Of a stretch of 64,000 nucleotides of DNA, positions 43,031 through 62,054 are shown one piece after another. The DNA comes from Couchioplanes caeruleus (GTDB lineage: Bacteria > Actinomycetota > Actinomycetes > Mycobacteriales > Micromonosporaceae): the NCBI RefSeq assembly GCF_023499255.1, contig NZ_CP092183.1:3220501-3284500 (forward strand). The letters are read 5' to 3'. Below the pieces are notes generated by a model. The model worked only from the letters and a program-made list of their open reading frames with translations. It did not search any database and was not told where the DNA came from. The position numbers were made by a program, and so were the translations under genes. The stretch's first letter is position 1. Every line of letters begins with the position of its first letter.

Positions 43031-43391
43031 CGATTTTTTAGGCCGTTGGCTAGGGTGAAAATCCTGGTCAGCGGCTTTTCCAATGGACTGATATCACTCG
43101 ACAAGATCGCTGCAATGGATCTTGTGGTCACAGGCGTGGTCACAGCCTCGAAGAGGCGTGGTCACATAGATGACGGACAAAACATCTCGAGTTACCCTGC
43201 TGGGCCGTGTCAGGTGGCAGCTTTGCGAGCTTTGCTCTCAGCGCACTTGACTGTCTTCAGTGTGCTGACTTGTGGCGTCTGGTGATGCCTTGTCTTAACG
43301 AAGACGCCGACACGCCTTAGATGACGCGCCGTCGTGCCGAACCAAAGGTGTGGCTGGGGCTACGCTGTGCGACACGGAGAGGTAGGTGTGG
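43031..43391. other. Junction region right of attR, with repeats
   Basis: A diverged copy of the tRNA terminator hairpin lies at about 43039-43078. GTGGTCACA occurs at 43124, 43136 and 43158 as tight direct repeats, which could be integrase arm sites left by another element. An open frame across it (43046-43285) has no start signal or similarity. The remainder is the leader of the helicase gene. Confidence 0.45.
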
Positions 43392-46136
43392 ATGTCTTCG
43401 CCCAACGCAATCCCACAGCTCACCGGCATGGCGCTCGCCGCCGTTCAACACCGTGGGAGTCACCTGCAGATCATCGCTTCGGCCGGGTCAGGCAAGACCG
43501 AGGTGGTCTCCCAGCGCGTTGTTGATCTGCTTGCGGACGGTGTCGATCCCGAGGGCATCGTGGCGTTCACCTTCACCGAGCGCGCGGCCGAGGAGCTGAA
43601 GACTCGCATCGTTCAGCGAGTCGAGGGCCGGCTCGGTCGAGGAGTAGTCGATCGACTCAACGGCTTGTTCGTAGGCACGATCCACGCCTTCTGCTTTCGC
43701 CTGCTCCAGCAGCGAGTACCCCGCTTCGAGACCTATGACGTGCTGGACGACAACCAGCTCACGGCCTTCATGGCCCGCGAGGCGAACCGGCTCAATATCC
43801 GGGCGCTGGACGCGGGCAACCGGCTCTTTGCCTCGATCGAGGCGTTCGGCAAGGGCGTTGACGTCGTTGAGAACGAACTGCTCGACCCGGCATCTATATC
43901 TGAACCCCTTGGGCCGGTACTGCGCGACTACTACGCGACCCTCGAACGGTACCGACTTCTGACCTATGGCCAGCAGGTTGTCCGAGCTGTGCGGGAACTC
44001 GAACGGCCGGAATTCGCGGCCGAGGTCCACGCTACGCTTCGTCACCTGATTGTGGATGAGTATCAGGACGTCAACCCTGCCCAGGAGCGGCTCATCGAGC
44101 TTCTCACTGGCCCTCAGGTCGAACTGTGCGTGGTCGGAGATGACCAGCAGGCGATCTATCAGTGGCGAGGTTCGGACGTGGCGAACATCGTGACGTTCGC
44201 AGAGCGCTATCCGAACGTGGCGACTTTCGAGATTACGGTGAACCGGCGCAGCCGGCCCCAGATCATCGCCACGGCCAATCGGTTCGCGCAGACGATCCCG
44301 GACCGCATCGACAAGGAGATGCTTCCGTATCGCGAATCCGGGACCATTCCGCAATCCGAAGTGGCCGTCTGGTGTGGCTCCGATGAGGAAGAGGAAGCCG
44401 GCTGGATAACGTCATACATCCTCGACCTGGTCGAGCGGGGACTGCGGTACCGCGATATCGCCGTGCTCGTGCGCAGTCGGGCCGCCTATGGCCGCCTGGT
44501 CGAGCAACTCGCGACGTTCGGCGTTCCCGTGCAACCCGGTGGGCGATCTGGTCTGTTCGAGATGCCGGAAGCGCGCGTGCTGGGCCGCGTGTTCGCCTGG
44601 CTGACCGACACTGATTGGCGGGACTACCGCCAGGCACCGCAACCAGTCACCGACGCGGCAATCTTTGGCGAGCTGATCCAGGTCTTTGAGCTGGACGCCG
44701 TACGACGCGCTGCCGTCGTTCGCTTGCTGCGCGAGTGGAAGACGTTTGTACCCAGAGAGACGCGAACCGCCAACCTGGTGGGGGAACTCTACGAGCTGTT
44801 CGCAGAGTTGGGCGTACGCCATTGGGATTTGAACGAGCCCGGGGTGATTAACCGGCTCGGTACGTTGGCTCGGGTCTCTGCATTGCTCGCCGACTACGAG
44901 TCGGTGCGCCGGCGAGCCCGGCCAGATGCGGCCGCTCCTGGCGAACAGGTGGGCGGACAGGACCGTGGCACCTGGTACTACCGGAACCTGGCGCTGCACA
45001 CCATCAACTACGCCCAGAACGCGTATGAGGGGTTCGATGGTGAGGGAGACTTCACGCTCGATGCCATCGATCTGACGACGGTGCATCGGGCGAAGGGTCT
45101 CGAGTGGCCAGTCGTCTTCGTGCCGTCGATGACCAAGGGGCGCTTCCCCTCTTCACGCACCGGTAAGCCGCAAGAGTGGCTCGTACCCCGGACGAAGTTT
45201 GACGCAGCCCGATACGAAGGATCGGACGCCGACGAGCGACGGCTCTTCTATGTTGCTATGACTCGAGCCCGCGACTGGCTTTCTGTCTCCCGGCACGAGC
45301 GCGTAACGACGCGGCGAGTTGCGCGAAGCCCGTATCACCAGGAGATCTGTCCTGTTGAGGTCAAGCCGGACGATGTCGGCTTTCCGTCGATCGAGCGAAG
45401 GGGAGCCGATAGCGACGAGGCCATCACCCTGACGTACAGCCAGATGGCGGCGTTCATGGATTGTGGGCAGGCATTCCGGCTGCGCGAGATGATCGGCTTC
45501 CAGCCGCGGCTGGCGCCCGAGCTCGGTTACGGCAAGGCCGTGCACCACGTTTTGCGGTCGGTGGCCGAGTCGACGAAGGAGACCGGAAAGGTTCGGTCGC
45601 CCGCAGAGATCGATGCGCTTCTCGACGCCAGCTTTTTCTTGCCCACCGCTAACAAGGCTGCACACCGGCAGCTGAAAGACGCGGCTCGACGGCTTGTCGG
45701 CACCTACACCGACAAGTATGCGAGCGATCTGCACCGCGTGTGGGAGACGGAACGGCCGTTCGAGCTGCACCTTGACGGCGTGATCGTAACCGGTCGAGCG
45801 GATGTGATTCTCGACCGCGAAGGCGGTGTCACGGAGGCGTTGGCGATCGTCGACTACAAAACCTCAACGTCCGGCGATCACGAGCAGCATGCGCTTCAGC
45901 TGCAGGTCTATGCCGACGCCGGGCGTCGAGAGGGACTGGACGTGCGAGCCGCATACGTGCATGACCTCAAACATGCGACGCGTATGCCGATCGAGGTGGA
46001 CGCCGAGGCCATCGCACGAGCGGAGGCGACGGTCACCGAAGCGGCTGAGCGTGTCAAGGCGCGTGACTATCGGCCCAATCCCGGTGCGCGATGCCGCGGA
46101 TGCGAGGTACGAACAATCTGCGGCTCCGCGCGTTGA
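43392..46136 (+). CDS. UvrD/Rep-family helicase fused to a RecB-like Fe-S nuclease
   Basis: 914 residues. SF1A helicase motifs are in order: ASAGSGKTEVV (I, ~31), AFTFTERAAEELKTRI (Ia), VDEYQDVN (II, ~223), GDDQQAIYQWRGS (III), TVHRAKGLEWPVVFV (V) and LFYVAMTRARDWL (VI). A C-terminal PD-(D/E)xK nuclease follows (GRADVILDREGG, LAIVDYKTS), with four cysteines placed as in Fe-S RecB/AddB/Cas4 nucleases (MDCGQAF and CRGCEVRTIC). ATG at 43392 after GAGAGG. It resects or degrades DNA ends. It converges on the Mod gene and may belong to the same defence block. Confidence 0.9.
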   Translation: MSSPNAIPQLTGMALAAVQHRGSHLQIIASAGSGKTEVVSQRVVDLLADGVDPEGIVAFTFTERAAEELKTRIVQRVEGRLGRGVVDRLNGLFVGTIHAFCFRLLQQRVPRFETYDVLDDNQLTAFMAREANRLNIRALDAGNRLFASIEAFGKGVDVVENELLDPASISEPLGPVLRDYYATLERYRLLTYGQQVVRAVRELERPEFAAEVHATLRHLIVDEYQDVNPAQERLIELLTGPQVELCVVGDDQQAIYQWRGSDVANIVTFAERYPNVATFEITVNRRSRPQIIATANRFAQTIPDRIDKEMLPYRESGTIPQSEVAVWCGSDEEEEAGWITSYILDLVERGLRYRDIAVLVRSRAAYGRLVEQLATFGVPVQPGGRSGLFEMPEARVLGRVFAWLTDTDWRDYRQAPQPVTDAAIFGELIQVFELDAVRRAAVVRLLREWKTFVPRETRTANLVGELYELFAELGVRHWDLNEPGVINRLGTLARVSALLADYESVRRRARPDAAAPGEQVGGQDRGTWYYRNLALHTINYAQNAYEGFDGEGDFTLDAIDLTTVHRAKGLEWPVVFVPSMTKGRFPSSRTGKPQEWLVPRTKFDAARYEGSDADERRLFYVAMTRARDWLSVSRHERVTTRRVARSPYHQEICPVEVKPDDVGFPSIERRGADSDEAITLTYSQMAAFMDCGQAFRLREMIGFQPRLAPELGYGKAVHHVLRSVAESTKETGKVRSPAEIDALLDASFFLPTANKAAHRQLKDAARRLVGTYTDKYASDLHRVWETERPFELHLDGVIVTGRADVILDREGGVTEALAIVDYKTSTSGDHEQHALQLQVYADAGRREGLDVRAAYVHDLKHATRMPIEVDAEAIARAEATVTEAAERVKARDYRPNPGARCRGCEVRTICGSAR

Positions 46137-46176: not shown

Positions 46177-48870
46177 TCAGACAGTGAATACCTTCATCAC
46201 CTCGTCGCCGTAGTCGTTGATCACCTTGACCGCGATCTTTCCCGTGTCCGGCCGGGCGAACGGGCGTGACTCCGTGGAGTAGAGACTCGCCCAGGCGTCC
46301 GGTTCGATCTCGGCCTTGAGGGCCGCCTTGAGACGCTTGTACGGGTCTTGCCCGCCGGTGAAGTGGCAATGCCGGACGAAGAACGACTCGCCGTTGTACG
46401 CCGTGTCGATCATCCACAGAGCGATCTGGTCGGTGCTGTTGCTGCGCAGCTCGCCCGTGTTTGGGTCGTACACATCGACGCCGTGCAGCAGCACGCGCAG
46501 CTCGTCGTCCTCGGTCTTGATCTCGATGTCCGGTTCGCCGAACACGGTGAACAGGTTGCCGGCGCCGGTCTTCTTCAGTTCTTCGCCCATCACCAGGTCG
46601 GCGTTCATGCGGACGAGCAGTACCGGTACGCGGCCGAGTCGCCGCTCGGCGGCCACGTTCGCAAAGCCATCCGCCGAGGTGACGTATTCCTCCTCCGCCG
46701 TTCCGAGCACTGAGGGATCGAATGCGAACGCGAGAACGCACAGCAGGTCGATGTCCTTGGCGCGGATCGCCTCGCGAGCAGCGTCCTTGATGAACTGCGG
46801 ACCCACCGTCCCGTACTGCGGGCCGACGGTAATGCCGATCCTCTTCGCGGTGCCGTTGCTAGCCTCGTCCCTCAGTCCGACAGCTTGGATGTACGGGGAT
46901 GCGTAGGGCTCCACTGAGCTGAAGCTCATGCGTTCATTCTTGCGACCGTTTTGAATGCCGGCGTTGCGTAGGTTCGCGAGAATATTCTGTTCGAAGCGCG
47001 CGTCACCGTCGGAGGTCTCCTCGCCGGCGACCGTGGTGTTGCCCGTTTGGTCGACAGCGCTACCTGCGAAGGCCAGCGAACGATGTGGCGACAAGCTCTC
47101 AACGGTGAACGGGCCGGCTACGCGGACTCTGCGTTGGTCCTCGTATGGCTTGTCGACTAAGAGCTCGTAGTCGGCGTGCCGTTTGATCGCAGCCTCAATC
47201 TCCGCATGGGACATTCCCTCGTTGATGTCAGGATTGTTCGCTATAGAACTGAGAAGAATTCGCTGTGCGCGTTCGTAGACAAACCCCTGTCGTATGTCTC
47301 GCGATGTCTCTACGGGCGGTAGCGGTCGACCTGAGACTTCCGACTCTTTCGCCCTGCCCTCGGGGCTGTCCGCCAGTAAGTACCATGGGTATCGCGCTCC
47401 CATGATTCGCTGTCGGGCGAGCGCTAGCGCGACTCGTGATGTATCGATGGTAATCCATCTCCGGCCCCATTGTTCGGCCACGAGTGCTGTGGTTCCGGAT
47501 CCGCAAGTTGGGTCAACGACTAAATCCCCCGGATCCGTCGTCATAAGCATGCAGCGTTGGATCACCGAGGTTGTAGTTTGTACAACGTATAGCTTCTCAG
47601 TTCCGAATCCGGTGGCGTTAACGTCGGACCAAAAGTTCGTTAGCGGCCGGAATGGAAATTCGTCTCGATATGACTTCCACGTTAGAGTTTTTCCTACCGC
47701 GACGATGCGGCCACTCATGCACGCTCGCTGCACCCCGGCAGCGGTTACACTCCAGTGCCTACCTCTAGGCGGAAAAAATTCACGGCCGCCCAGGATGACA
47801 GGGTTTGCGGAATCCGGAGTTGCTCCTTGGGAGTCTGTAGCTTGTAAGCGCAGTATCCTTCCTTCTGGAATCGGCTCGAGTCCCGACTTCTGCGCTAGCG
47901 AGAGGTCAATGAGCTGACCATCTGATGTCTCGACGCAGACGAATCTTTCTTTTGGGTTCTCGATCGGCTTACGGGGCTGGTAGAGGTCGCGTTTCTTGAC
48001 AATCTTCCGATCCTTTGAATACCAGAGTAGGTAGTCGAAGACGGCAGGCACTAGAGAAGACGTCGCGCCGCTCGTTTTGGTGAAAACGATTTGGGCACAA
48101 AAGTTCTCTGCTCCGAACACCTCGTCCATAACGCTGCGTACTAGATGCACATTTTCGTCTCCAATTTGGACGAAACAAGAACCTGTGTCGGTTAAGAGTT
48201 CGCGTCCGGCGAGTAGGCGATCTCGCAGGTACGATAAGTAGGAATTGATTCCAAGTTCCCAAGTATCACGGAATGCCTTGATCTGTTCGACTTCCCGCGT
48301 AGCATGCTCAATCTTGCCATCCGTGACTTCAGGCTTTCGAGCCGATACTTGCCAGTTAGAGCCAAACTTGATGCCGTATGGCGGATCGATATAAATCATC
48401 TGGACTTTGCCACGTAGCCGTTCCCGCTCCGCCAAGCTCGCCATGACGTTCAGCGAGTCGCCGAGGATCATGCGGTTCGACCAGTTGGCTTCGTGCTGGT
48501 AAAAGTCCACCATGTCGAGCTCGTCGAGGCCGTCGAAGGCGTCGAAGAGCGTCAACTCAGGCTCTTCCTCCGGCGACGCCGCAGTGTTTCGCAGGTTCTC
48601 GATCAGCACCCGAGGGTCGATCTTTTCCTGGATGTAGATGGGCGGGACCTTGCCCTCCAGATATTCGGCGAGGTCTTGCTCCTCCTTGCCGCGCCAGACG
48701 AGCTGTGGGCTGTGAAGCGGCCGCGGATATCGGAATGTAAACGGGTTCTCCATATCCGGATCAACGAAGTCGTGGGCGTCGGCGGTCGGCAGGTTGACGC
48801 GCTTGTCGGGGTGCGTGATCGCGTCGACCGGGGTGGGGCCGGCCGGGGCGGCCTTCTTCCTCGGGGGCAT
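46177..48870 (-). CDS. Type III-like DNA methyltransferase (Mod)
   Basis: 897 residues. Motif IV IYIDPPYGIKFG near 168 precedes motif I DPTCGSGTTALVAEQWGRRW near 455, the beta-class order of type III Mod subunits; DPPY predicts N6-adenine methylation. The region between holds the target recognition domain. Its DNA (about 47.3-48.4 kb) is visibly richer in A/T than the gene ends, which suggests domain exchange. About 300 residues of extra C-terminus follow, unusual for Mod. It is the last gene of the leftward six-gene operon, 21 bp after Res. Confidence 0.9.
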   Translation of the reverse strand: MPPRKKAAPAGPTPVDAITHPDKRVNLPTADAHDFVDPDMENPFTFRYPRPLHSPQLVWRGKEEQDLAEYLEGKVPPIYIQEKIDPRVLIENLRNTAASPEEEPELTLFDAFDGLDELDMVDFYQHEANWSNRMILGDSLNVMASLAERERLRGKVQMIYIDPPYGIKFGSNWQVSARKPEVTDGKIEHATREVEQIKAFRDTWELGINSYLSYLRDRLLAGRELLTDTGSCFVQIGDENVHLVRSVMDEVFGAENFCAQIVFTKTSGATSSLVPAVFDYLLWYSKDRKIVKKRDLYQPRKPIENPKERFVCVETSDGQLIDLSLAQKSGLEPIPEGRILRLQATDSQGATPDSANPVILGGREFFPPRGRHWSVTAAGVQRACMSGRIVAVGKTLTWKSYRDEFPFRPLTNFWSDVNATGFGTEKLYVVQTTTSVIQRCMLMTTDPGDLVVDPTCGSGTTALVAEQWGRRWITIDTSRVALALARQRIMGARYPWYLLADSPEGRAKESEVSGRPLPPVETSRDIRQGFVYERAQRILLSSIANNPDINEGMSHAEIEAAIKRHADYELLVDKPYEDQRRVRVAGPFTVESLSPHRSLAFAGSAVDQTGNTTVAGEETSDGDARFEQNILANLRNAGIQNGRKNERMSFSSVEPYASPYIQAVGLRDEASNGTAKRIGITVGPQYGTVGPQFIKDAAREAIRAKDIDLLCVLAFAFDPSVLGTAEEEYVTSADGFANVAAERRLGRVPVLLVRMNADLVMGEELKKTGAGNLFTVFGEPDIEIKTEDDELRVLLHGVDVYDPNTGELRSNSTDQIALWMIDTAYNGESFFVRHCHFTGGQDPYKRLKAALKAEIEPDAWASLYSTESRPFARPDTGKIAVKVINDYGDEVMKVFTV

Positions 48871-48891
48871 GTCTCGTTCCCTTTCGCAGCG

Positions 48892-51800
48892 TCAGTCGGG
48901 CAGACCGATGATCGGCCGGTCGGCATACAGGTTCTCGATGGCGTCGTGCAGCACTTCGCGGAACTGCATAGGGTGGGTGGCTTCTACGTAGCCCCAGCGG
49001 CCGTACTGGCCCCAGTTGTTCACGGCAGCGCACCACTCGTGCCTGGCGGTGTGCGCCTTGGCGGCGGTTGGCCCGGGGGACTTGCGGCTTCCAGAAACTT
49101 CGACGATGAGCGTCCGTTCGACGTCGTCTGCGTCTCGCGGAACCAGTCGCACAATGAAGTCGGGCACGTAGTCGTGCTGGCGGCCTTCATGAACGTACGG
49201 GATGGTGAAGCCGAGGCGTTCGTTCTTGACGTAGGCGTGGACCCGCGAGTCTCCCTCAAGGATCTCGGCGAGACCCTCTTCCCAGGTGTTGCCGCGCTGG
49301 CCGTCGAGCACGACCTCGGTCAGGTGCGATTTCTGTGGCGGTGGCGCCATGACTACCTTGCGGGTAACGAAGTCGACATCGTCCGTCGAGCCTTCGGGAT
49401 CAAATCGGCGCAGGACCGGCATCAGCACCTTGGCGCGGTTGCCGAGCTGGCGGATGATCGATCCGAAGACCTTTTCAGCTGCCCGCGAGGTTGCCTGAAC
49501 CAGCAGAAGGTTGCCCTTCGACACGTCGGGGTCGGTGGTCACCCACTCCTTCAGCCACTGCCGGCAGATTTCGACGACCTGCGGGAAGAGCCAGGGCCTT
49601 TCTACGCCGTCCGCGGCGGCTAGGTACTTCTCGTCTTCCATGAGCCGCTTGGCGATGGTGTAGGCGATGCGTTGGTCACGGGCGCCCCGGATGTCGGCCA
49701 GCTCAATCTGCAGCCGCTCGCCTACGACACCCTGGTTTTCCACCCACAGCGCCACGAACTCCTGGGTGACGTGCAGACGTGACTTTTCATCGAAGTCTGC
49801 GATCAGCGTCTCGTCCGGGAGTTCGACGCGATAGCCGTCCAGCTTTGGCCACCGGATCGCAAGGTCGGCTCGCTCGGATACCGCGTACACCCGAATCGCC
49901 GGCCGGATGTCCTTCTGCGGCGGCGGGGTAGCGCGGTCGGAGGGGATAAAGGCGAACGGCACGCCGTACACCTCGGCGTACTCCGGCTCGAACTTGCCGT
50001 CTGCGTTCGCAGCGTAGCTGCGGCGGCGTAGACCGCGGCCGACCACCTGCTCGCACAGCAGCTGACTGCGGAATGGCCGCACGCCGAGGATGTGGGTGAC
50101 GGTGTTGGCGTCCCACCCCTCAGTGAGCATGGCCACCGAGACGACACAGCGGATGTGCTCGCCGAGCTTGCCCTTTTTGCCGATGGTGTTCATCGCCTCG
50201 CGGAGCAAGTCGGCGTCGTTGATCTTTTCCACGTCAGCGCCCGGGTTACGCAGTCGAAACTCCTGCTTGAATGCCTCGATCTCGCGAGCCGCGGCCTGCT
50301 TAAAGTCAGGCCCAAGTGGATCCCCGGACTCCAACGCGACCGAGTCGACCAGGATGGTCCGTTGCCGGGTCGTCCAGACGCCATCCTCGATGTTGCTCAG
50401 CAGTGACAGGTTGCCTGGACGCAGCCGCTTCTCACCGTCCTGGTCGACCTCCCAGCCGGCAATCCACTCGTAAACCAACTTGGACACGACCGTATTCGGG
50501 CAAACGATGATCATCACGGGTGGAGGCTCGCCGAGTCCCGCTAGGTCCTTCTCATAGCGGACGTGGTTCTGCTCGTACGAGCGATACAGACTGCGAATCG
50601 CGCCCTCGAGGGTTTCCGGCATCACCCACCCCTGCGAGGTGATCGGTGCGCCCTTGGAAGACTGGCGCTGGGGCAGCGGTGGCCGGATGTTGTCCCACAG
50701 GTTGAGGTACACCGGTTGCTGAGCGACGGCGTCGTCGTCCACGGGGATGCGCGGGATCTTGACGATGCCGGACTCGATGGCGTCCATCAGCGAGAAATCG
50801 CTGACCACCCAGGGGAAGATGTGCCCCTCGTTATAGCCGGAACCCTTGAGGTAGTACGGGGTCGCCGATAGGTCATAGACCGTCTTGACTGAGGTCCGGC
50901 GCGAGACGTCCTGCAGTCCGCGGAACCACACGCGTGCCTCGCGGTTTCGCTCCTTGTCGGATTTATCAGCGACGTCTTCCGGGTGCTCCAGCAGTTTGTC
51001 CTGGTAGCAGTGATGTGCCTCGTCATTGAAGACAACAAGGCCACCCTCGGTCGACCCGAACGCGCCGAGCACTCGGTCCGCGACCATATCCGGGGTTTCT
51101 TGGAATGCGTCGGCGTCACCGGGCGGTCGGTTCCCGCGCAGCAGCTTGCGGGTGTTGGCGTTGACTCCCTTAATTTCCTTGGCGTCTCTAGGGAGGAATG
51201 TGTGGTAGTTGACCACCTTGACGTTGGCCTGGAGGACGACCTCCCAGAGATCCGGCGGTACCAGGTTCCGTTCGTCGTAGTAGTTGTCGTCCCGCTCCGG
51301 CTGCAGGACGCCGAGTCGGTCGCGAATGGTGATTCCCGGGGCCACGATCAGAAATCGCTTTGCGAACCGCGCGTCCCGAGGGGTCATCACCTTGTTGACG
51401 GTTTGCCAGGCGATCAACATCGCCATCACGACGGTCTTGCCGCTGCCAGTGGCCATCTTTAGTGCCACGCGCGGCAGGCCGTCGCTGTGCATGCGATTTT
51501 CCGGCTCCAGCCGTCGGCGGTAGTCCGTCGTCCCATGCCGACCCGCTACTTCGGCGAGGAAGATGGCGGTCTCCACCGCCTCCCGTTGGCAGAACAGCAC
51601 CGGGTCCTCCCGATGCGGTCCGGGAGCCCAGTGGGCCAACAGCTTCCGGGTGTACGGCGTCACACCGGTCCAGTTGTTCGCCCGCCATCTCTCAACCTCG
51701 CGGCGGATGTCGTTGACGAGGCTGTTGACTTCCCGCCGTTCGCCGGTGATGTCAAAGTCGAGTGCCTCTTGCACATGCTTCTGCCGTGTCTTGCGACTTG

Positions 51801-51963
51801 GCGGCAAGGGGATGAACGACTCGCTTGGCCGACGGCCCGGCTTGAGGGCGCCGGTCGGGCCGTGTGGTCCGATCTCGAAGTGCTGCTGCGGCGGCTCGTA
51901 CGGCGAGTTGATGATCGGGTTGCTGAGGTCGGGCGCCTCTGCCGCGACTTCGGACAAAGTCAT
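48892..51963 (-). CDS. Type III-like restriction subunit (Res), SF2 helicase
   Basis: 1023 residues. SF2 motifs: ALKMATGSGKTVVMAMLI (I, ~173), VVFNDEAHHCYQ (II, ~314), YDLSATPYYLKGSG (III), a MLTEGWDANTVTHILGVRPF-type motif V and EQVVGRGLRRRSY (VI). The C-terminus has the endonuclease-like pattern YVPDFIVRL, then LIVEVSGSRKS. Where type III enzymes have E-x-K this one has E-x-S, so the catalytic Lys is missing or displaced. It translocates on DNA with ATP. If the nuclease is dead, cutting could be done by the RecB-like protein encoded upstream. Confidence 0.88.
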   Translation of the reverse strand: MTLSEVAAEAPDLSNPIINSPYEPPQQHFEIGPHGPTGALKPGRRPSESFIPLPPSRKTRQKHVQEALDFDITGERREVNSLVNDIRREVERWRANNWTGVTPYTRKLLAHWAPGPHREDPVLFCQREAVETAIFLAEVAGRHGTTDYRRRLEPENRMHSDGLPRVALKMATGSGKTVVMAMLIAWQTVNKVMTPRDARFAKRFLIVAPGITIRDRLGVLQPERDDNYYDERNLVPPDLWEVVLQANVKVVNYHTFLPRDAKEIKGVNANTRKLLRGNRPPGDADAFQETPDMVADRVLGAFGSTEGGLVVFNDEAHHCYQDKLLEHPEDVADKSDKERNREARVWFRGLQDVSRRTSVKTVYDLSATPYYLKGSGYNEGHIFPWVVSDFSLMDAIESGIVKIPRIPVDDDAVAQQPVYLNLWDNIRPPLPQRQSSKGAPITSQGWVMPETLEGAIRSLYRSYEQNHVRYEKDLAGLGEPPPVMIIVCPNTVVSKLVYEWIAGWEVDQDGEKRLRPGNLSLLSNIEDGVWTTRQRTILVDSVALESGDPLGPDFKQAAAREIEAFKQEFRLRNPGADVEKINDADLLREAMNTIGKKGKLGEHIRCVVSVAMLTEGWDANTVTHILGVRPFRSQLLCEQVVGRGLRRRSYAANADGKFEPEYAEVYGVPFAFIPSDRATPPPQKDIRPAIRVYAVSERADLAIRWPKLDGYRVELPDETLIADFDEKSRLHVTQEFVALWVENQGVVGERLQIELADIRGARDQRIAYTIAKRLMEDEKYLAAADGVERPWLFPQVVEICRQWLKEWVTTDPDVSKGNLLLVQATSRAAEKVFGSIIRQLGNRAKVLMPVLRRFDPEGSTDDVDFVTRKVVMAPPPQKSHLTEVVLDGQRGNTWEEGLAEILEGDSRVHAYVKNERLGFTIPYVHEGRQHDYVPDFIVRLVPRDADDVERTLIVEVSGSRKSPGPTAAKAHTARHEWCAAVNNWGQYGRWGYVEATHPMQFREVLHDAIENLYADRPIIGLPD

Positions 51964-52000
51964 GCTCTAGGTCCCCCGGAGGTTCGGTCGGCTGGTGACA

Positions 52001-53314
52001 TCATGCACTCATGGGGATGCGGTGCGTCTCAAGGTGGGTCATTACAGTCTGATTTGCCGCCCAGCCGTCTGGGAACTTGACCGTCTCGTAAAGGTGAACA
52101 GGTTCCGTCGATGGGTGGGCGTCGAGCAGCTCGTGAATGCCTACCCGGCCTACGATGACGCAGGCCTGGCGGTGGCGGGACGTCAGCACACACAAGCGGC
52201 CCGCTTCGAGGTGGAAGGCGGTTGCGTCTCGGCGGCCCGACAGCGGATGCAGCACCACCGTCACGTCGTACTCTCGGCCCTGCAGGCGGTTCGCGGTGTC
52301 CACCGTGATGTCGGGCTGATCGGCCAAGGCAGTCCGCAGTGCGGAGACCTGGTCTCGGTGGGCGGCTCCGACGGCGATGCGCGACGGCGTCACCGGGCCT
52401 GACGTCGAGCCCGACCGGGCGACGGGACCTCGTTCCACGAAGCGCCGGGCCACGGCGGCCACGGCGTCGACCGCCTCGGCGTCGGTCCGCATGGTGTGCC
52501 GGGCGGGCAGCTCGAGGTAGCCCCAGCCGGAAGTCGCGGCTTCCTCGAGCACGGCGTCCACGGGCGTCCGGCCGAGGGCCCGTGTCGTGAACGTCAGCTC
52601 CCGCTCACCTGGGCCAGTCCCGGTGCGGAAACCGGTGAACGGGTAGAACGCCGAGGCGATCACATCCTGCGCGGTGCGCGGCAGGCGCCACGAGACAGGT
52701 AGCTGGTGCTCGGGTACGCCGTCGTTGTTGCGGAGCAGGCCGGCCACCGCCGACTGCATCGGGTCCCAGGTGAGTCCCCGCCAGCGATCGTTCTCCACGA
52801 CCGAGAAGGGGTCGAGCTGCCCGGGGTCGCCGACGAACAGGGCTCGCTCGAACAGGCGGGCGATGGCGAGCAGGGCGTCGGAACGCATCTGGTACGCCTC
52901 GTCGACGATGGCCCACTCCCAGGAGCGGTCCTTGACGTACGCCCACTTCGCCGCGGTGGCAATAGTGACCGGGCACCCGGCAAGGTTGCCGGCGTCCTTG
53001 TCGCAGGCGACGTTAGTGAGGCCTGCGACGCGCGCTGACGGTACATAGTCGGCGCTGCTCAAACGCCCGATCAGGGTGGACGGGAGCCGGCCGGCGAGCG
53101 AAGCGGTCAGGTCGTCGACCTGCTCGTTCGTCTGGGCGACGATCATCAGGCGCTCGCCGTCCTCGACCAGTTCGGCCGCGGCGCGCACCACCAAGGTGGA
53201 CTTGCCGGCGCCGGGCGGCGAGTTGACGACCACGCCGCGGTGTTTGCCGGAGCGAAAGTCTTCCAGGATGCGCAGCGTCGCCTGCGAAGCCTCGTAGGCG
53301 GGGTCGAAGGTCAT
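52001..53314 (-). CDS. SF1B (Upf1/Dna2-like) helicase or ATPase
   Basis: 437 residues. P-loop VVNSPPGAGKSTLVVRAA near 35, Walker B WAIVDEAYQM near 138, GDPGQLDPF (motif III), SWRLPRTAQDVI and a C-terminal VDTANRLQGREYDVTVV followed by RLCVLTSRHRQACVIVG are the AAA_11/AAA_12 helicase motifs. Small for this class: the OB-fold 1B/stalk insert is missing. The adjacent upstream protein, rich in beta-strand near its end, may supply it. The start overlaps that gene's stop (ATGA). Confidence 0.85.
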   Translation of the reverse strand: MTFDPAYEASQATLRILEDFRSGKHRGVVVNSPPGAGKSTLVVRAAAELVEDGERLMIVAQTNEQVDDLTASLAGRLPSTLIGRLSSADYVPSARVAGLTNVACDKDAGNLAGCPVTIATAAKWAYVKDRSWEWAIVDEAYQMRSDALLAIARLFERALFVGDPGQLDPFSVVENDRWRGLTWDPMQSAVAGLLRNNDGVPEHQLPVSWRLPRTAQDVIASAFYPFTGFRTGTGPGERELTFTTRALGRTPVDAVLEEAATSGWGYLELPARHTMRTDAEAVDAVAAVARRFVERGPVARSGSTSGPVTPSRIAVGAAHRDQVSALRTALADQPDITVDTANRLQGREYDVTVVLHPLSGRRDATAFHLEAGRLCVLTSRHRQACVIVGRVGIHELLDAHPSTEPVHLYETVKFPDGWAANQTVMTHLETHRIPMSA

Positions 53315-54777
53315 TCCCACACCTCGCGGGCGTCGTCTTCGGTCGGCGTGTAGGGCTTCGGCGGGCCGCCGTGGGTCCACGGGGTTTCCTCGGGCGCCGG
53401 CAGTTCCGGTGAGCGCATGCCATCCGGGAACACGCTGGTGTAGGTCAGTTCTTCGCCGAGCGACGGGACGGTGCCCGGAGCGGCAGTCCCGCCGCGGCCC
53501 ATGCTGTTCTCGATCTGCAGCTCCACGCGGTCGCCGGTGACGCTCAGAATGGTGACGTCCTGCTTCGGGCGGCTGGGGGAGCGAAGTTTCGTCGTGGCGA
53601 GGAGCCGGACCGGGTCACCTGTTCGGACGACGACGCGCGGCCGCAGAATGCGGCGACCCTTGTCAGACACAATCTTGCGATCGGGCTCGACCTCGACCAC
53701 GGTGCCAAAGAAGGCTTCGCCGGTCACTCGGAAGCTCGCCATCACCAACGGGTCGTCGAGAGCGCGCGTGGCGTCATACTCGTTCTGCTCGCGCTCCAGG
53801 CGCTGCAGTCGGCGCGCCGCGGCGACCGCCCCGTCACGACGGGCCTGCGGGAAGCCGCCCCCGCTGACGTACTGGTGGTAGTTGGTGAAATCGGCGCGGT
53901 CGATGGCCCAGCGGTCGGGCACCGTGTCGCCCGGAGGCAGGGTGCGCAGCAGATCGATCGCCTGCCACATCAGCCGCCAGGTGGGCTCGAGCTGCGAGCG
54001 AAGATCGCGTTGCAGTACGGCCAAAGCCCGCTCGTGCTTGCCTTCGTCGTAGAGCCGGATCGCTGGCGCCAGAACCTCGTTGTCGAAGGTGGGGTCCGTG
54101 CTGGGCCCAGCCGGCGGCCAGATCGTCGGATCCTCCGCTTCGAGCGCGGCCACTGGTGCAGGCACGCCAGCAGGCGGCTGAATCCACGCCAACAGGGCAG
54201 CGAGGTTGGCGTCCTCCAACGCGCTCTGCCCAGTCGCCCAGTGCTGGCCCAGGGCGGAAGTCATGGCGACCAGCGCCGATGAGCCGGGGTGCTCCGACCG
54301 CTCACCGAGCCAAGTCAGCCAGCGGCCGAGCAGCGGCACCTGCGGCGAAACGGCATACTCGCCGGTCGTGCGCCGGAAGCGAGTGGACCGGCCGAAGAGG
54401 CGCACGAAGCCGGCGCCAGTAGGGCTGGGCACCAGCATTTGCGGCGCGTCCAAGTAGCGTGTCCTGGATTGCTTGCCGTATGTCTCGACACCCTGGCGCG
54501 GGCGCTCCTCGATGTACTGCAAAATGATGGCGGCGAGCTGATCAGCGAAGGTGAACCGCAGGGTGCGGTTGCGCGGCTGCGGCACGAACAGCATCGTCGG
54601 GTTGTCCCGGTCGGTGCCGATCATTGCTGCGAGCGGCGCGTTGGCTTCGCCGGCCATGGTGAGGGGCACGAAGACCAGGGGATGGTCGCTCAAGTGCAGA
54701 TGGCGGCGGGTGGCGATGGGGTACGCCCGTCCGCCGTCCACGGCGAGGGCTCGGGCGTACGAGGAGATCGCGCTCAT
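53311..54777 (-). CDS. Unknown protein of the Mod/Res operon
   Basis: 488 residues, no recognised family. The first ~270 residues are mixed (DGGRAYPIATRRHLHLSDHPL; FADQLAAIILQYIEERPRQG; LLGRWLTWLGERSEHPG). After a helical section (~290-330) comes a beta-rich region (~345-430: FFGTVVEVEPDRKI, RPRVVVRTGDPVRLLATTKL, VTILSVTGDRVELQIE) that reads like an OB-fold or SH3 barrel. It overlaps both neighbours by ATGA and adjoins a small SF1 helicase. A helicase cofactor or split domain is plausible. No catalytic motif is visible. Confidence 0.7.
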   Translation of the reverse strand: MSAISSYARALAVDGGRAYPIATRRHLHLSDHPLVFVPLTMAGEANAPLAAMIGTDRDNPTMLFVPQPRNRTLRFTFADQLAAIILQYIEERPRQGVETYGKQSRTRYLDAPQMLVPSPTGAGFVRLFGRSTRFRRTTGEYAVSPQVPLLGRWLTWLGERSEHPGSSALVAMTSALGQHWATGQSALEDANLAALLAWIQPPAGVPAPVAALEAEDPTIWPPAGPSTDPTFDNEVLAPAIRLYDEGKHERALAVLQRDLRSQLEPTWRLMWQAIDLLRTLPPGDTVPDRWAIDRADFTNYHQYVSGGGFPQARRDGAVAAARRLQRLEREQNEYDATRALDDPLVMASFRVTGEAFFGTVVEVEPDRKIVSDKGRRILRPRVVVRTGDPVRLLATTKLRSPSRPKQDVTILSVTGDRVELQIENSMGRGGTAAPGTVPSLGEELTYTSVFPDGMRSPELPAPEETPWTHGGPPKPYTPTEDDAREVWE

Positions 54778-55856
54778 GCCGCCACCGACCCGTAGATCTG
54801 CGCCGTGATCTGCAGCATCGCGGCTGCTTCTTCTTCCTCGACCGACGCCATCGCCTTTCCGTGTGCCAGGTCGAGAGCCCGGGCGACGTGCTCGACGCCA
54901 CCGAGTTCCTCACGGACCGTCGTGCCCAGCGCGGACGTGCAACCAGCGGCTTCGTGTCGGCAGAAGTAGGCCATCTCGCAGCTGTTGAGGCACGACGGCG
55001 CGTATCGGGCCTCCATGGTCGAGAGTGCTGTCATGAGCTCGTCGGGGGAGTGGGTGGCGAGATCGAGGCTGAGCCCGTCCGGCAACTGGTCGACGAGAGT
55101 TTCGATCCGGGCGAGGCGGGTGAGCTGGTGGTCCAGGGTGATCAGCTGCTTGCGGACGTCGATCTTGACCGCGGTGGGTTGGTTCGAGAAGTCTTTCGGG
55201 CAGACGAGCACTACCTCGTGCGAGACCGCGGCGTCGCCGAGCAGCCGCCGCAGCGCCAGCACGTAGACCGCCGACTGCCGGGCCGCTGCAGCGGTTTTGG
55301 TGCCGTCAGCCTGGTCGTCGATGATGGCAAACGATTTGATCTCGACGACGTGCAGGACGCCGTTGTGGTGGAAGGCGACCAGATCGGGCTCGAGGTAGAC
55401 GTCGTTGCCGCCGACGTCCAGCCGCAGCAGCGGGTGATCGAGGAAGGTGAGCGGTTCCCGGCCTTCGACGGCGGCCTTCAGAGCTTGACGAGCGCGGGTG
55501 TGCCGCACCTCCTGGCTCGCGTTGCCGCCGACGTCGTTGAGGTCGGTGCTGCCCACCTCTTCGATCTCCAGGCCGAGCACCTCGCGCAGCAGACGCAGAA
55601 GCTCGGCGTATCCGTTGGCCTTGACTTGGGCCTCGAACGAGTTGCCCCGGGTGATGGCGAACTGGGACTGGCCGAATTTCGCCGGGAACCCGATCTGCTT
55701 GGCCAGTGCGTCCTTGTCAACGCCGGCTGCGTCGAGCACGGCCCGCCGTGCGCAGCCCGGGTTTCCGGTCAGAGCGGCCACCGTACGGGCGTTGTGTCGC
55801 TTCGCGGGAGCGGGGCCGCGCAGCTGGTGGAGTCGGTGCGGGGTGTCGTCGGGCAT
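54774..55856 (-). CDS. RecB-like PD-(D/E)xK nuclease with cysteine cluster
   Basis: 360 residues. The nuclease core is LEPDLVAFHHNGVLHVVEIKSF at ~152-172 (D then E-x-K), followed by QSAVYVLALRRLLG, the QxxxY helix of RecB-family nucleases. Cysteines in CLNSCEMAYFCRHEAAGC (~288-305) plus an N-terminal PGCARRAVLDAAG could form the Fe-S clamp of Cas4/AddB-type enzymes. AAGGA lies 7 nt before the ATG. Its stop overlaps the unknown gene. It is probably the nuclease effector of the operon. Confidence 0.8.
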   Translation of the reverse strand: MPDDTPHRLHQLRGPAPAKRHNARTVAALTGNPGCARRAVLDAAGVDKDALAKQIGFPAKFGQSQFAITRGNSFEAQVKANGYAELLRLLREVLGLEIEEVGSTDLNDVGGNASQEVRHTRARQALKAAVEGREPLTFLDHPLLRLDVGGNDVYLEPDLVAFHHNGVLHVVEIKSFAIIDDQADGTKTAAAARQSAVYVLALRRLLGDAAVSHEVVLVCPKDFSNQPTAVKIDVRKQLITLDHQLTRLARIETLVDQLPDGLSLDLATHSPDELMTALSTMEARYAPSCLNSCEMAYFCRHEAAGCTSALGTTVREELGGVEHVARALDLAHGKAMASVEEEEAAAMLQITAQIYGSVAA

Positions 55857-55887
55857 CGTTCGTTCCTTCGCGGAGAACGGAGACGGG

Positions 55888-56682
55888 TCAGGAGCCGGTG
55901 GCCGCGGCGCGGCCCAGCCGGGCGCCGAAAAGTTGTTGTGACGGAGTGAGCTGGTCGATGGCCCGCTTGGCGGCCGCTTCGCGGTGCGACCGATCGGCGT
56001 CGACATGGATGACCAGTTCGGCCTGAGCGGCCTCGGCGACGGCGGCCGGGGTCATAGCGTTGGCGCTGGTGGCGGCTCCCGGGATCGTGGCGGCGAAGCG
56101 CCACAGCAGCCGCCGGGCGTTCGGGCCCGTCTCGCCGAGCCTTTCCAGCTGTTCGGCAAGTCGGGTGGCGGCGGTGAGGAAATCGACCCGCAGGCTGAGC
56201 GGGCCGATGATCCGCGTGGCCATCGGCCACGACGAGACGGCGATCAGCCCGCGCGCAGGCGCGAGGTGGTCGGCCGTCAGAGCGGCGCAGAGATAGTACG
56301 GGCGGGAGTATGGCGCGGACTGGAACGAGCGCTCCTCGTCGCGCCGCAGACTCGTGAGCTTGGTCGGTGTCAGCTCCCCGGTGGCGAACGCTTCGTGTAC
56401 GGCGACGACGAGCTTGGGAGCGGCCGGAGCTCCGAGCAAGGTCAGCGCCTGGTGCACCTGTTCCCGTACGGGAAGAAGTGGCCCGGAAGCGAGCCGCGGA
56501 GCCGGAACCAACGGCGTCTCGTCCGCCAGTTCCTCATCGAGGAGCGCTTCCCACTCGCGCTGTGCCTGACGCAACTGTTTACGCAGGCTGGTAACGCGCT
56601 CGCGGTCGCCGGCGGTCAGCGCTCGCCGCACCTCGGTGCGCAGATCTTCGATCCGCCGATCGAGGGCCTCGACTTGATCCAT
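55888..56682 (-). CDS. Unknown coiled-coil protein heading the operon
   Basis: 264 residues. An N-terminal coiled coil (VEALDRRIEDLRTEVRRALTAG...KQLRQAQREWEALL) is followed by a helical domain beginning LLPVREQVHQALTLLGAPAAPKLVV. TPTKLTSLRRDEERSFQSAP resembles a winged helix that could bind DNA. No named family. First gene of the six-gene leftward operon, 104 bp from the divergent SMC-like start. The intergenic DNA contains TACCGTAC, similar to the dyad before the 59698 gene. Confidence 0.65.
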   Translation of the reverse strand: MDQVEALDRRIEDLRTEVRRALTAGDRERVTSLRKQLRQAQREWEALLDEELADETPLVPAPRLASGPLLPVREQVHQALTLLGAPAAPKLVVAVHEAFATGELTPTKLTSLRRDEERSFQSAPYSRPYYLCAALTADHLAPARGLIAVSSWPMATRIIGPLSLRVDFLTAATRLAEQLERLGETGPNARRLLWRFAATIPGAATSANAMTPAAVAEAAQAELVIHVDADRSHREAAAKRAIDQLTPSQQLFGARLGRAAATGS

Positions 56683-56786
56683 ACCAGTACCGTACAGTCT
56701 TCCAGCAGGTTCCAGCAATCCCCAGTAACTACTCAATGCTGTCCTTCCCCGGGCGGCCCACCGTAACGTCGGCATGGGAGCAGACG

Positions 56787-59219
56787 GTGAGCACGACTCA
56801 CGCACTTCTGGAGCATCTTTTCGACCGTTTGACCGAGCAGCGCACCTCCGATCAGACCGCCGAGGTGGTTCTGGGTGCCTTCGCCGGGGAGTGTCAGCTT
56901 CGCGCCGTGCTCGACGGCGCCTCCGCTGACCTGCCTGCCCGCGAAGGGCAGGCGGCCGAGCAGCGGCACGTTTTCCTCGAGCGCGTCACTGTGACGGGCT
57001 TTCGCGGCATCGGCGCCAAAGCCGCGCTGCACCTGCAGCCGCAACCCGGTCTCACCCTGGTCATCGGGCGCAATGGTTCTGGCAAGTCCAGCTTCGCCGA
57101 GGCCGTCGAGCTCTCTCTCACCGGCGACAGCAAGCGCTGGGCCGAGAACAACCGAATCTTCCGCGAGGGCTGGCGCAACCTGCACCATCCAAACCAGGCG
57201 ACCATTGAAGTCACGGCGCGCCTCGACGGCTCCCCTGTGCCCGTGCGCCTGCGCCGCCGCTGGCGCGACGACGCCACCGAACCCAGCGATGCGGCCGCCG
57301 ACGTCCGCCACGGCGACCAGACGTACGCCGACGTCGACGCTCTCGGCTGGCGCCAGCCCTTGGAGGCGTACCGCCCGCTGCTGACCGCCAACGATCTGGG
57401 CCGGCTCATCTCGTCGCGGCCCAGCGACCTGTTCGACGCGCTCGCGCCGCTGCTGGCCATCGAGCCGATCACCGACGCCGAGAGCCTGCTGAAGCGGATC
57501 AAGCGGGAGCTGGACACCCAGCTCAAGGCGGTGTCCGACCGGCGAAAGTCCCTCCGCCAGGCGCTCGGCGAGGTCGACGACGAGCGTGCCCGCGCGGCGG
57601 CCAAGCTGCTCGCGTCCGTTCGGCCTGCCCTCGACGCCGTGGACCGGCTGCTAGGCAACACGGACGACGTCGACCCTCAGGTGACGGCGTACCGGAGGCT
57701 GGTGAGCCTGCCGCCGTTGCCGCCGGCCGAGGAGATCACCGCGGTGGCGGACACGCTGACGGCGGCTGCGGTCCACGTCGGGGAAGCACCGGACAGCAAC
57801 GTCACCGAGGACATGGCCCGGCTGCTTGAAGCTGCCACCGAACACTACGACGCGCACGGTGGCGGCCCTTGCCCGTTGTGCCATGCCGGCGTGCTGGACC
57901 AGCATTGGCGTACCGACGCTCAAGCGGAACTGGATCGCATCCGCGACGATGCGGCTGCCCGCCGCTCCGCTATGGACGGCCTGGCCGTCGCCCGCCGGAA
58001 GGTTCAGGCACTTCCGGTCGGCGCGGGAGTGCCCACGACGCTGCCGGAGGACTTCCCAGCCGAACTCCGTGAGCGGCTCAGGACGGCATGGGCCGTCTGG
58101 TCGGGTCTCAGCGCCGATGCCGACCCGGAAGCGGTGGCCGCGCATCTCACCAGCACCTACCCACCCTTGCTGCAGACGGTCGCGGCGGTACGCGAAGCGG
58201 CCATCCTTTGGTTGCAGGCGCGTCATGACCAGTGGCGTGACCTCGCCGCCCAGCTGCAGCAATGGCACGCCGACGCCGTCGCGGCGCGTGTTCACGAGGC
58301 TCCGCTGGCGCGCGTCAAGGAGGCCCTCGACTGGTACAAGCCGCTGATCGAGAACCTTCGCACGGAGCAGCTGGCGCCGTTCGCCGCCCGGTCGCAGCAG
58401 ATCTGGGAGGAGCTGCGCCAGGAGAGCAACGTCGAGCTGGCGGGGATGAAACTCGACGGGTCGAGCACCCGGCGGCGGGTCGCGTTCCCGGCCACCGTGG
58501 ACGGCACGGCGACCAGCGCGATGTCGGTGATGAGCCAGGGGGAGATGCAGGCTCTCGGTCTGGCTGTGTTCCTGCCGCGCGCCAGCGCGGACGCCAGCCC
58601 GTTCCGGTTCCTCATCATCGACGACCCGGTGCAGAGCATGGACCCCGCTAAGGTGGACGGGCTCGCCCGGGTCTTCGCCGACCTGGCGCAGACCCGTCAG
58701 ATCATCGTCTTCACCCACGACGATCGGCTCCCGGAGGCCGTCCGTCGCCTCGAGATTGACGCGACCATCTGGGAGGTCGTCCGCCGGGAGAACTCGACGG
58801 TGGAGATCCGCAAGAACATCGACCCGGTGAAGCGCTACCTCGACGATGCTGCGGCTCTGGCTAAGACTCGGGATATGCCGGTCGAGGTCCGCACGCCCGT
58901 CGTCGTGACCTACTGTCGGTCGGCCCTCGAAGCTCGTTTCCACCAGATCATCCGTGCCCGTCGCATCGGGCGTGGCGAACCTCATCGCGATGTCGATGCA
59001 CTGATCGGCCGGGCCCGCACCACGATGCAGGTGGCTGCGCTTGCTCTCTTTGACGACATGGATGCCGGCGGTCAGGTTTTCGGCAAGCTCAACACCGCGC
59101 ACGGCGGGTGGGCGGCCACCGCCCTGCGCACCTGCAAAGAAGGCGCCCACGGCGCCGCCGTCAACGACCCCGAACAGCTTGTGGCCGATGTGGCTCGTCT
59201 CGTTGCGAGGCTGAAATGA
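56787..59219 (+). CDS. SMC/SbcC-like ATPase with zinc hook
   Basis: 810 residues from the GTG at 56787, chosen because GGAG lies 6 nt upstream; an ATG 17 codons earlier is possible. FLERVTVTGFRGIGAKAAL and LTLVIGRNGSGKSSFAEAVEL (Walker A, ~95) begin the head. Coiled coils flank CPLC (~361), a Rad50-like hook. VMSQGEMQALGLAVFLP is the ABC signature, FLIIDDPVQSMDP Walker B (~612) and IIVFTHDDRLPEAV the H-loop. Divergent from the Mod/Res operon and overlapping the next small gene. Probably scans or bridges DNA for the neighbouring nucleases. Confidence 0.85.
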   Translation: MSTTHALLEHLFDRLTEQRTSDQTAEVVLGAFAGECQLRAVLDGASADLPAREGQAAEQRHVFLERVTVTGFRGIGAKAALHLQPQPGLTLVIGRNGSGKSSFAEAVELSLTGDSKRWAENNRIFREGWRNLHHPNQATIEVTARLDGSPVPVRLRRRWRDDATEPSDAAADVRHGDQTYADVDALGWRQPLEAYRPLLTANDLGRLISSRPSDLFDALAPLLAIEPITDAESLLKRIKRELDTQLKAVSDRRKSLRQALGEVDDERARAAAKLLASVRPALDAVDRLLGNTDDVDPQVTAYRRLVSLPPLPPAEEITAVADTLTAAAVHVGEAPDSNVTEDMARLLEAATEHYDAHGGGPCPLCHAGVLDQHWRTDAQAELDRIRDDAAARRSAMDGLAVARRKVQALPVGAGVPTTLPEDFPAELRERLRTAWAVWSGLSADADPEAVAAHLTSTYPPLLQTVAAVREAAILWLQARHDQWRDLAAQLQQWHADAVAARVHEAPLARVKEALDWYKPLIENLRTEQLAPFAARSQQIWEELRQESNVELAGMKLDGSSTRRRVAFPATVDGTATSAMSVMSQGEMQALGLAVFLPRASADASPFRFLIIDDPVQSMDPAKVDGLARVFADLAQTRQIIVFTHDDRLPEAVRRLEIDATIWEVVRRENSTVEIRKNIDPVKRYLDDAAALAKTRDMPVEVRTPVVVTYCRSALEARFHQIIRARRIGRGEPHRDVDALIGRARTTMQVAALALFDDMDAGGQVFGKLNTAHGGWAATALRTCKEGAHGAAVNDPEQLVADVARLVARLK

Positions 59220-59584
59220 TCACTGCCGAGAACTACCTCGCCAGCGCCGCCGACCTCATGATTAAACCGGCCACCGGTACTCGCGGACTCTGGCCGCGGG
59301 CGAGTGCGTGGCTCCTTCGTCTCGCCTTGGAGGCGGCACTGGACCGCTACTGGGAGGCGATGGCCCCCAGCGTGGCGGAATGTCGTAATCGGCGGGCGCA
59401 GCTGATGATGTTGCGGGAGTACGCCGGTGCCGAGACCGCGCAGCGGGCAGCTTATCTGTGGTGGGCGTTGTCGCGGGCTGGACATCATCACGGATACGAA
59501 CTGGCTCTCACGGCCGGAGAGCTCCGGCACCTGCACACCGAGTCGCGTGCCATGGTCGCGACCCTCAGGCAGACGTCGAAGTGA
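59216..59584 (+). CDS. Small helical partner of the SMC-like ATPase
   Basis: 122 residues, nearly all helix (ENYLASAADLMIKPA, WLLRLALEAALDRYWEAM, ETAQRAAYLWWALSRAGHHH). HHHGYELALT recalls His-rich ends but no HEPN RxxxxH pair is clear. The ATG overlaps the SMC-like stop (ATGA), so the two are made together. Function unknown. Confidence 0.75.
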   Translation: MITAENYLASAADLMIKPATGTRGLWPRASAWLLRLALEAALDRYWEAMAPSVAECRNRRAQLMMLREYAGAETAQRAAYLWWALSRAGHHHGYELALTAGELRHLHTESRAMVATLRQTSK

Positions 59585-61296: not shown

Positions 61297-62054
61297 CTCT
61301 GACACAGAACGATCACACCGACATCGGAACCCTGATCGCGTACGCGGTACAGCCCACCCAGCGTCCCGGACGCAGTCAGGAATACCGCAGGGTGCTCGGC
61401 CGATACCGTACCGAGTCCGACTTCCGGATCGCCGCCGATGCCGTTCTGCACGGTCTGTCCGCCCAGGTCCTATCCGACGGCGACTTCGGGCTTGTCCTCG
61501 GCGTCAGCCCCGAGTCGCCGTTCGCCTTCCGGGTCGGCGACATGCCCCACGCGGCGACTCGGATCGGGCGATTGGTGGCCGGTCTCGTCCTGGTCGGCGT
61601 GGCCGCCTACGCCTACCCCACACCGGCCGACCTGGAAGAAGAACGGATCCGCCGGATCACGGACGTCGAATTTGAGCAATGGATGCGCGCGATATGCGAG
61701 CGCATGCAGAAGCACGACGCCGCCGGCGAGCCCGTTCCCGACGACGGCTTGGACGAGGCGTGGCGCGCCTACCATGAGATGCCCTCCACGCTCGTCGGCG
61801 ACAGAGGCCGTGGCTCCGGACGGCTGTCACCCAAGTGCGCCCTGTACTGGGTTCGCAACATTTTGGGCTGGCTCGTGGAGCAAGGCATGGCCCGTGCCGA
61901 CAGCACCGGCGGAACCTGGATGCTCACCGAGCGATTCCGGATCCAGGTCAAGGACATGGCCAGCGAACCCGCCTACACCTTCCTGGCGGAGGTCGCCCGA
62001 CGGCCGCAGGCCGCCAACCGACCCTTCGCAGCCGACAACGGGGAGGAGGCGTGA
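61293..62054 (+). CDS. Small subunit of an SMC complex (Wadjet JetB/MksE-like)
   Basis: 253 residues. The ATG overlaps the previous stop (ATGA) and the TGA overlaps the SMC start (GTGA). RTESDFRIAADAVLHGLSAQVLSDGDFGLVLG and the following winged-helix-like section (LYWVRNILGWLVEQGMARADSTGGTWMLTERFR; family match only) fit the KITE-type subunits that bind kleisins. Length matches MksE. No catalytic residues expected. Confidence 0.55.
   Translation: MTLTQNDHTDIGTLIAYAVQPTQRPGRSQEYRRVLGRYRTESDFRIAADAVLHGLSAQVLSDGDFGLVLGVSPESPFAFRVGDMPHAATRIGRLVAGLVLVGVAAYAYPTPADLEEERIRRITDVEFEQWMRAICERMQKHDAAGEPVPDDGLDEAWRAYHEMPSTLVGDRGRGSGRLSPKCALYWVRNILGWLVEQGMARADSTGGTWMLTERFRIQVKDMASEPAYTFLAEVARRPQAANRPFAADNGEEA

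Follow-up and report, generated by a model that had tools for sequence, protein, structure and literature searches.

A putative DNA2-like helicase-nuclease split over three genes in a defence island of Couchioplanes caeruleus

Bad of Geobacillus stearothermophilus is a bacterial DNA2-like enzyme that combines a 5′–3′ motor and a single-stranded DNA endonuclease in one chain (Wilkinson et al., 2020; PMC7430649). That paper presents DNA2-like enzymes as rare in bacteria, sporadic in occurrence and of unknown role, and reports a second class in Mycobacteria and Rhodococcus. The central domain of Bad is given there as of unknown function. In Geobacilli, Bad is found next to a type III Mod-like methylase; the authors suggest a novel restriction enzyme (PMC7430649). 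Here we describe three adjacent genes, NUC, UNK and HEL, that together encode the recognizable parts of such an enzyme. They lie in a 64,000-nt stretch (the window) of Couchioplanes caeruleus, Micromonosporaceae (NZ_CP092183.1, 3,220,501-3,284,500; the genome is a single contig of 8.42 Mb), beside a gene for a helical protein (CC), a restriction pair (RES and MOD) and a divergent SMC-like ATPase (SMC) with its small partner (SML; Table 1). We favour, with some reserve, the explanation that NUC-UNK-HEL is a DNA2-like helicase-nuclease split in three, whose genus-wide copies serve repair and whose island copies are tied to SMC-type sensors.

Parts of a DNA2-like enzyme on three genes

A first-pass annotation, made from the letters of the window, had read NUC as a RecB-like iron-sulphur nuclease and HEL as an SF1 helicase, and both readings hold. 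NUC has RecB-type nuclease residues (D158, E172, K174, Q194 and Y198) and four conserved cysteines (C35, C289, C293 and C299), a combination from which it is predicted to be a RecB-family nuclease with an iron-sulphur cluster, as in DNA2 and Bad. PDDEXK_1 was found in 10 of the 27 NUC members scanned (best E 0.00096), the window NUC not being one of them, and NCBIfam gave nothing convincing. The NUC profile matched engineered proteins in the PDB over residues 15-46, which we judged to be chance or coiled coil.

HEL is an SF1B motor of the kind found in DNA2/Bad-like enzymes. It had six PDB matches, including IGHMBP2 (E 8e-7) and DNA2 (E 0.0037), and in profile comparison (hhalign) it aligns with a fungal DNA2 and with a protein of the TM0106 family (98.4%). 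Motif I is at residue 33 (motifs in alignment A4), which leaves no room upstream for domain 1B. The predicted structure of UNK ends in a barrel that resembles this domain and would take its place before motif I. UNK itself has no Pfam or NCBIfam match at E 0.01, and its sequence profile has no PDB match at E 1; Caa3_CtaG, found by Pfam in 9 of 40 UNK relatives (best E 0.0066), was again judged to be chance or coiled coil. In the proposed arrangement, NUC would be the nuclease, UNK would supply the stalk and barrel absent from HEL, and HEL would be the motor. By analogy with DNA2 and Bad, a complex of the three would load at a free single-stranded 5′ end, travel 5′ to 3′, unwind and cut.

Like Bad in its published description, the unit has an iron-sulphur RecB-type nuclease before an SF1B helicase, and a middle region; unlike Bad, a single chain of 1245 amino acids (PMC7430649), it is encoded by three genes. 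Nuclease and motor were never found in one chain, the only fusions being the partial ones NUC-UNK and UNK-HEL. With eukaryotic DNA2 and IGHMBP2 (Upf1-like SF1B) it shares the order of nuclease (in DNA2), barrel 1B and motor, the last two matched by the UNK barrel and HEL, whereas the split, the additional N-terminal domain of UNK, the CC partner and the actinobacterial host set it apart. The TM0106 family of RecB-like putative nucleases has a helicase part that aligns with HEL, but TM0106 is a single chain. NUC, UNK and CC gave no hhalign match to one TM0106 protein, one fungal DNA2 or the PDDEXK domain of the UvrD-type helicase in the window; these templates were single sequences, and the result is hence no sign of difference. 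The motors of AddAB are SF1A enzymes, unlike the SF1B-like HEL. What AddAB has in common with the unit is an iron-sulphur nuclease with SF1 motors at DNA ends (described in part in PMC7430649). Our search of open-licence papers found no report of a three-gene DNA2 form or of its link to Wadjet. The first-pass annotation had not recognized the gene set as BREX, DISARM or Druantia, and PADLOC-DB v2 agrees: at E 0.01 UNK and CC have no match, NUC has one marginal and HEL six weak matches, and none is to a model of those three systems.

CC has no Pfam or NCBIfam name, and its Pfam matches up to E 1 are coiled-coil-like or chance. CC was modelled by AlphaFold2 (predicted local distance difference test score 89.8, predicted template modelling score 0.74); its PDB matches cover the helical hairpin only, in a comparison that barely probed the remainder of the protein. 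The UVR motif was matched by one of 28 CC members (E 2.3e-6). ABC_tran_CTD, which appeared in 14 of the 28 (best E 0.00097), was put down to chance or coiled coil. The likely role of CC is that of a subunit for DNA binding or docking.

Some variants of these genes were seen elsewhere. A GmrSD-type gene sits between UNK and HEL in loci L013 and L015 (GmrSD_N 87.6 bits in L013). Two metagenome proteins, P0142 (HEL-SbcC) and P0140 (HEL-GmrSD), contain a truncated HEL and may be artefacts. Plasmids of Rhodococcus, Mycolicibacterium and Xylanimonas (L194-L196 and L198) have in common an AAA ATPase (not listed in L196), a VWA protein, a small gene, an unknown protein of about 400 amino acids and a HEL-like helicase. 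The 400-residue protein is weakly colinear with UNK (hhalign E 0.0015, probability 16.8%) and may be another barrel subunit.

Conservation and two kinds of copy

Core loci were gathered via NUC (55) and via UNK (93), the latter comprising 88 of about 105 UNK places in a family sample of 150 Micromonosporaceae genomes (family and genus names being taken from loci that are identical to those of named contigs), four from a thin phylum sample of 149 genomes, and a second copy in the C. caeruleus genome. UNK reaches at least 400 amino acids in 144 loci, 132 of which are distinct, counted without the window and with plasmid loci kept distinct (81 of the 132 come from UNK alone). Four loci in which UNK is missing or cut (L022, L041, L043 and L057), the short loci L001, L002 and L060-L090, and the RES- or SMC-derived loci L179-L186 were left out of these counts. 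In the family genomes, thresholds were E 1e-100 for RES and SMC and E 1e-40 for HEL.

NUC accompanies UNK in all 132 distinct loci, with an ATGA junction in 82; the two are fused in L174, L175, L176 and L178, and 3 kb separate them in L099. HEL is the next gene on the same strand in 89 loci; in 23 it is farther away or inverted, and in 20, including four at contig ends, it is missing from the DNA that was fetched. A CC of 240 amino acids or more is present in 52 loci and CC of any length in 57. Across the family, UNK (26 of 44 genera), NUC and HEL are each found in 91 genomes and CC in 39. UNK and HEL occur together in 90 genomes and are both missing from 58, an association whose Fisher value is descriptive, as related species are not independent. 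The two exceptions, G173 (80% complete) and G242 (87%), have the genes at or near contig edges. HEL was present in all 18 genomes chosen for a HEL at least 8 kb from UNK and in none of six chosen for lacking UNK. The phylum sample yielded UNK in 5 of 149 genomes.

The second NUC-UNK copy of C. caeruleus is at 7.23 Mb (L003, G000:C1:7222000-7241900). Its UNK is 53% identical to that of the window, its CC is short (199 amino acids), and HEL is found downstream, past a 6.6-kb stretch that contains other genes. In a tree of UNK proteins, built by a quick method with SH-aLRT (approximate likelihood-ratio) support only, the second copy clusters with 15 other rows, 14 of them from its genus, and the window copy is placed elsewhere, within a clade of eight rows (support 96). 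UNK is encoded in each of the 15 genomes sampled from the genus. The Streptomyces copies occupy one conserved neighbourhood, whose genes by eye are not defence-like. Copies found throughout a genus would be vertically inherited and probably act in DNA repair. A divergent UNK clade of 13 rows (L166-L178 and relatives) keeps the cysteines and includes the four NUC-UNK fusions; 12 of the 13 have lost nuclease residues, as have three others, making 15 of 133 overall.

SMC-type neighbours and the role of the core

The first gene of a Wadjet type III operon lies 113 bp past SML in the window, and the island is thus larger than the eight genes from MOD to SML. JetA, JetC and JetD are all present: JetC matches JetC3 at 451 bits (C-terminal 770 amino acids in L004), and the next gene matches JetD3 (270 bits) and JetD_C (24.4 bits, cut-off 22). 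The 260-residue protein at the JetB position has no PADLOC or Pfam match. Wadjet genes are present in the stretch read at 13 of the 132 distinct loci (one type I, eight type II and four type III), SbcC or SbcD at 11 and SMC at eight; the window has both SMC and Wadjet type III. Wadjet of all three types is a repeated neighbour, with no Jet subunit within the core. PADLOC models confirmed the type I and II query proteins as JetA1, JetD1 and JetA2, and SbcC and SbcD of L032 bear the expected Pfam domains. On two Streptomyces plasmids, SbcCD is divergent from CC-NUC-UNK-HEL and JetABCD comes directly after HEL (SbcCD is fragmented in the second). Of 99 Wadjet markers in the 150 genomes (27 JetD_C and 72 JetA2), nine are no more than 20 kb from UNK, where 0.34 would be expected at random. 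Among the best 150 places of N6_Mtase, taken for comparison, there were two, both in one locus (Fisher p 0.008); with the locus of g124 collapsed to one event, the figures are 5 of 95 for Wadjet versus 1 of 149 for N6_Mtase (p 0.034).

These repeated SMC-type neighbours hint that core and neighbour may destroy foreign DNA by a common route. In the explanation that we favour, a split DNA2-like enzyme with repair and island copies, Wadjet, SbcCD or SMC-SML would make or present DNA ends at the island loci, and the enzyme would degrade the DNA from there. A bolder form of it holds that the enzyme, put together in trans from three subunits, is a destruction arm of actinobacterial SMC-type immunity, with Wadjet of any type, SbcCD or SMC-SML detecting and opening the foreign DNA that the enzyme would then unwind and degrade; such an arm would be a bacterial counterpart, by analogy, of Mre11-Rad50/DNA2 resection turned to defence. 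We regard this stronger version as possible but doubtful. Our search of open-licence papers found no dedicated paper on what removes plasmid DNA after Wadjet cleavage.

Several observations weigh against a tie to SMC-type sensors. At the genome level Wadjet shows no association with UNK (44 of 91 genomes with UNK versus 30 of 59 without, p 0.87), Wadjet was not seen in 119 of the 132 loci, most copies have no SMC-type neighbour in reach, and other defence genes also flank some core loci. What connects the core to Wadjet is thus proximity in a subset of copies rather than dependence, and a role in defence is put forward as a proposal.

The missing genome-level link would suit a core that is a housekeeping repair helicase-nuclease and nothing else, the island copy being a paralogue whose arrival among defence genes was accidental, as would the presence of UNK throughout the genus of the window and the single conserved neighbourhood in Streptomyces. 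The window UNK, however, belongs to another clade than the genus copy, and copies beside SMC, SbcCD or Wadjet recur, two of them on plasmids. Moreover, the six genes from SML to HEL are constant in the window and its nearest relatives L005 and L006, whereas the Wadjet at the same place is of type II in L005 and of type III in L006 and the window. We therefore consider a purely housekeeping role rather unlikely.

Alternatively, CC-NUC-UNK-HEL could act against phages as a system in its own right, independent of any SMC machine; at 34 of the 52 loci with a CC of at least 240 amino acids, neither Wadjet nor SbcCD nor SMC was indeed seen in the stretch read. Presence in every sampled genome of one genus would, however, be unusual for an anti-phage system, and we find this improbable. 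UNK at E 1e-5 and HEL at E 1e-3 were both absent from the phage records, a result that is neutral on the point.

Separable units of the island

The first-pass annotation had placed all eight genes correctly (the starts have since been tightened) and had rightly seen a run in one direction from 56682 to 46177, with ATGA overlaps or short gaps, and a divergent SMC-like pair. Its domain guesses for MOD, RES and the ATPase also stood (N6_N4_Mtase, ResIII and SMC_N/AAA_23, next to AAA_11/AAA_12 for HEL). It had missed the Wadjet operon, the UvrD-PDDEXK gene and the second NUC-UNK copy. ATGA stop-start junctions join NUC to UNK, UNK to HEL and SMC to SML; HEL and RES are 37 bp apart, RES and MOD 21 bp, and the divergent starts of CC and SMC 53 bp.

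Table 1. Genes of the C. caeruleus defence island, in window coordinates
Gene	Position	Strand	Product	Matches and remarks
UvrD-type helicase	43386-46136	+	UvrD-type helicase with C-terminal PDDEXK nuclease	UvrD 180 bits; PDDEXK_1 98.6 bits; convergent with MOD
MOD	46177-48870	-	type III-like DNA methylase, 897 aa	Pfam N6_N4_Mtase 101 bits; PADLOC MTase_III 836 bits
RES	48892-51963	-	BPTD_3080-family restriction enzyme, 1023 aa	NCBIfam NF046055 1110.7 bits, cut-off 800
HEL	52001-53314	-	SF1B-like helicase motor, 437 aa	Pfam AAA_11/AAA_12
UNK	53311-54777	-	488 aa; predicted N-terminal domain, long helices and C-terminal barrel resembling SF1B domain 1B	
NUC	54774-55856	-	RecB-family nuclease with iron-sulphur cysteine pattern, 360 aa	
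CC	55888-56682	-	264 aa; N-terminal helical hairpin and possible winged-helix domain	
SMC	56736-59219	+	SMC-like ATPase, CxxC hook, 827 aa	SMC_N 57 bits; AAA_23
SML	59216-59584	+	small SMC partner, 122 aa, HHH-x-YE motif	ATGA overlap with SMC
JetA (Wadjet type III)	59698-61296	+		PADLOC JetA3 408 bits
Gene at JetB position	61272-62054	+	260 aa	homologues adjoin JetA3 or JetC3 in L006, L010, L123, L153
JetC	61835-64000	+		start uncertain; extends past the window; JetD next

The annotation had also proposed a composite of all eight genes, in which methylation would label self DNA, Res and the SF1 protein would move along DNA and a separate nuclease would do the cutting, and had named their co-occurrence as the test. 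In terms of the parts described here, Mod would shield self DNA and the DNA2-like unit would cleave DNA without the modification. We rejected this composite because core homologues regularly recur without MOD and RES: MOD was detected near one of the 132 distinct loci and RES near three, and RES occurs in 3 of the 150 family genomes versus 91 for UNK. The three RES loci are L011, with RES upstream, L013, with a 189-codon 5′ remnant just past HEL, and L151, with a 44-bit match and MOD nearby; even with these and the Mod-like neighbour of Bad in Geobacilli (PMC7430649) in its favour, the composite is very improbable, as L005 and L006 carry a helicase gene resembling HmaA (635 bits in L006) after HEL in place of RES/MOD.

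Among the 150 family genomes, RES is beside the core only in that of the window; the two other RES genes of the family (L179 and L180) likewise have MOD adjacent, with no core gene within the 20 kb read. MOD/RES is a type III-like restriction pair distinct from the core. DNA2-like enzymes and type III Mod-like methylases may nevertheless be tied, by analogy with Bad. After HEL, L014 and L029 have a Cas3 gene (Cas3g 900 bits in L029).

SMC has a conserved Walker A, signature, Walker B and H-loop in the aligned homologues, and the CPxC of the zinc hook noted in the first-pass annotation is invariant in all 11. The place of the pair in the composite did not survive: 20 of 23 SMC homologues in the 150 genomes are more than 20 kb from UNK, and the six loci fetched for SMC (L181-L186) all have SMC-SML without the core, SML standing beside every such SMC. 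For 16 of the 23, a listed N6 methylase is no farther than 20 kb away, and in L185 (8627-19622) a complete operon for type I restriction is transcribed divergently from the pair and includes an additional gene for 712 amino acids with no PADLOC match. The best PADLOC matches of SMC are MADS mad3 (79 bits) and Lamassu LmuB (65 bits); MOD and HEL match mad2 and mad8 weakly (27.8 and 18.5 bits), and SML is unmatched. We do not claim SML as a HEPN RNase; its HHH is kept and the arginine is missing in L018, L181 and L182. SMC-SML is a separate two-gene unit, divergent beside CC in a subset of core loci, and the window is a defence island built of several separable units. Farther off in the window, a 1687-residue protein (25039-30102, plus strand) matches in part the PADLOC models PDC-M54A (45 bits) and Avs4 (22 bits) and is perhaps a STAND-type sensor; a 733-residue protein (36802-39003, minus strand) partially matches SspH (49.5 bits).

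If the three-subunit form is indeed what 91 of the 150 family genomes encode, DNA2-like enzymes would be common in one lineage. A domain 1B on a subunit of its own would mean that nuclease, barrel and motor are genetically separable. The repeated pairing with Wadjet and SbcCD would offer a way to test the fate of plasmid DNA cut by Wadjet.

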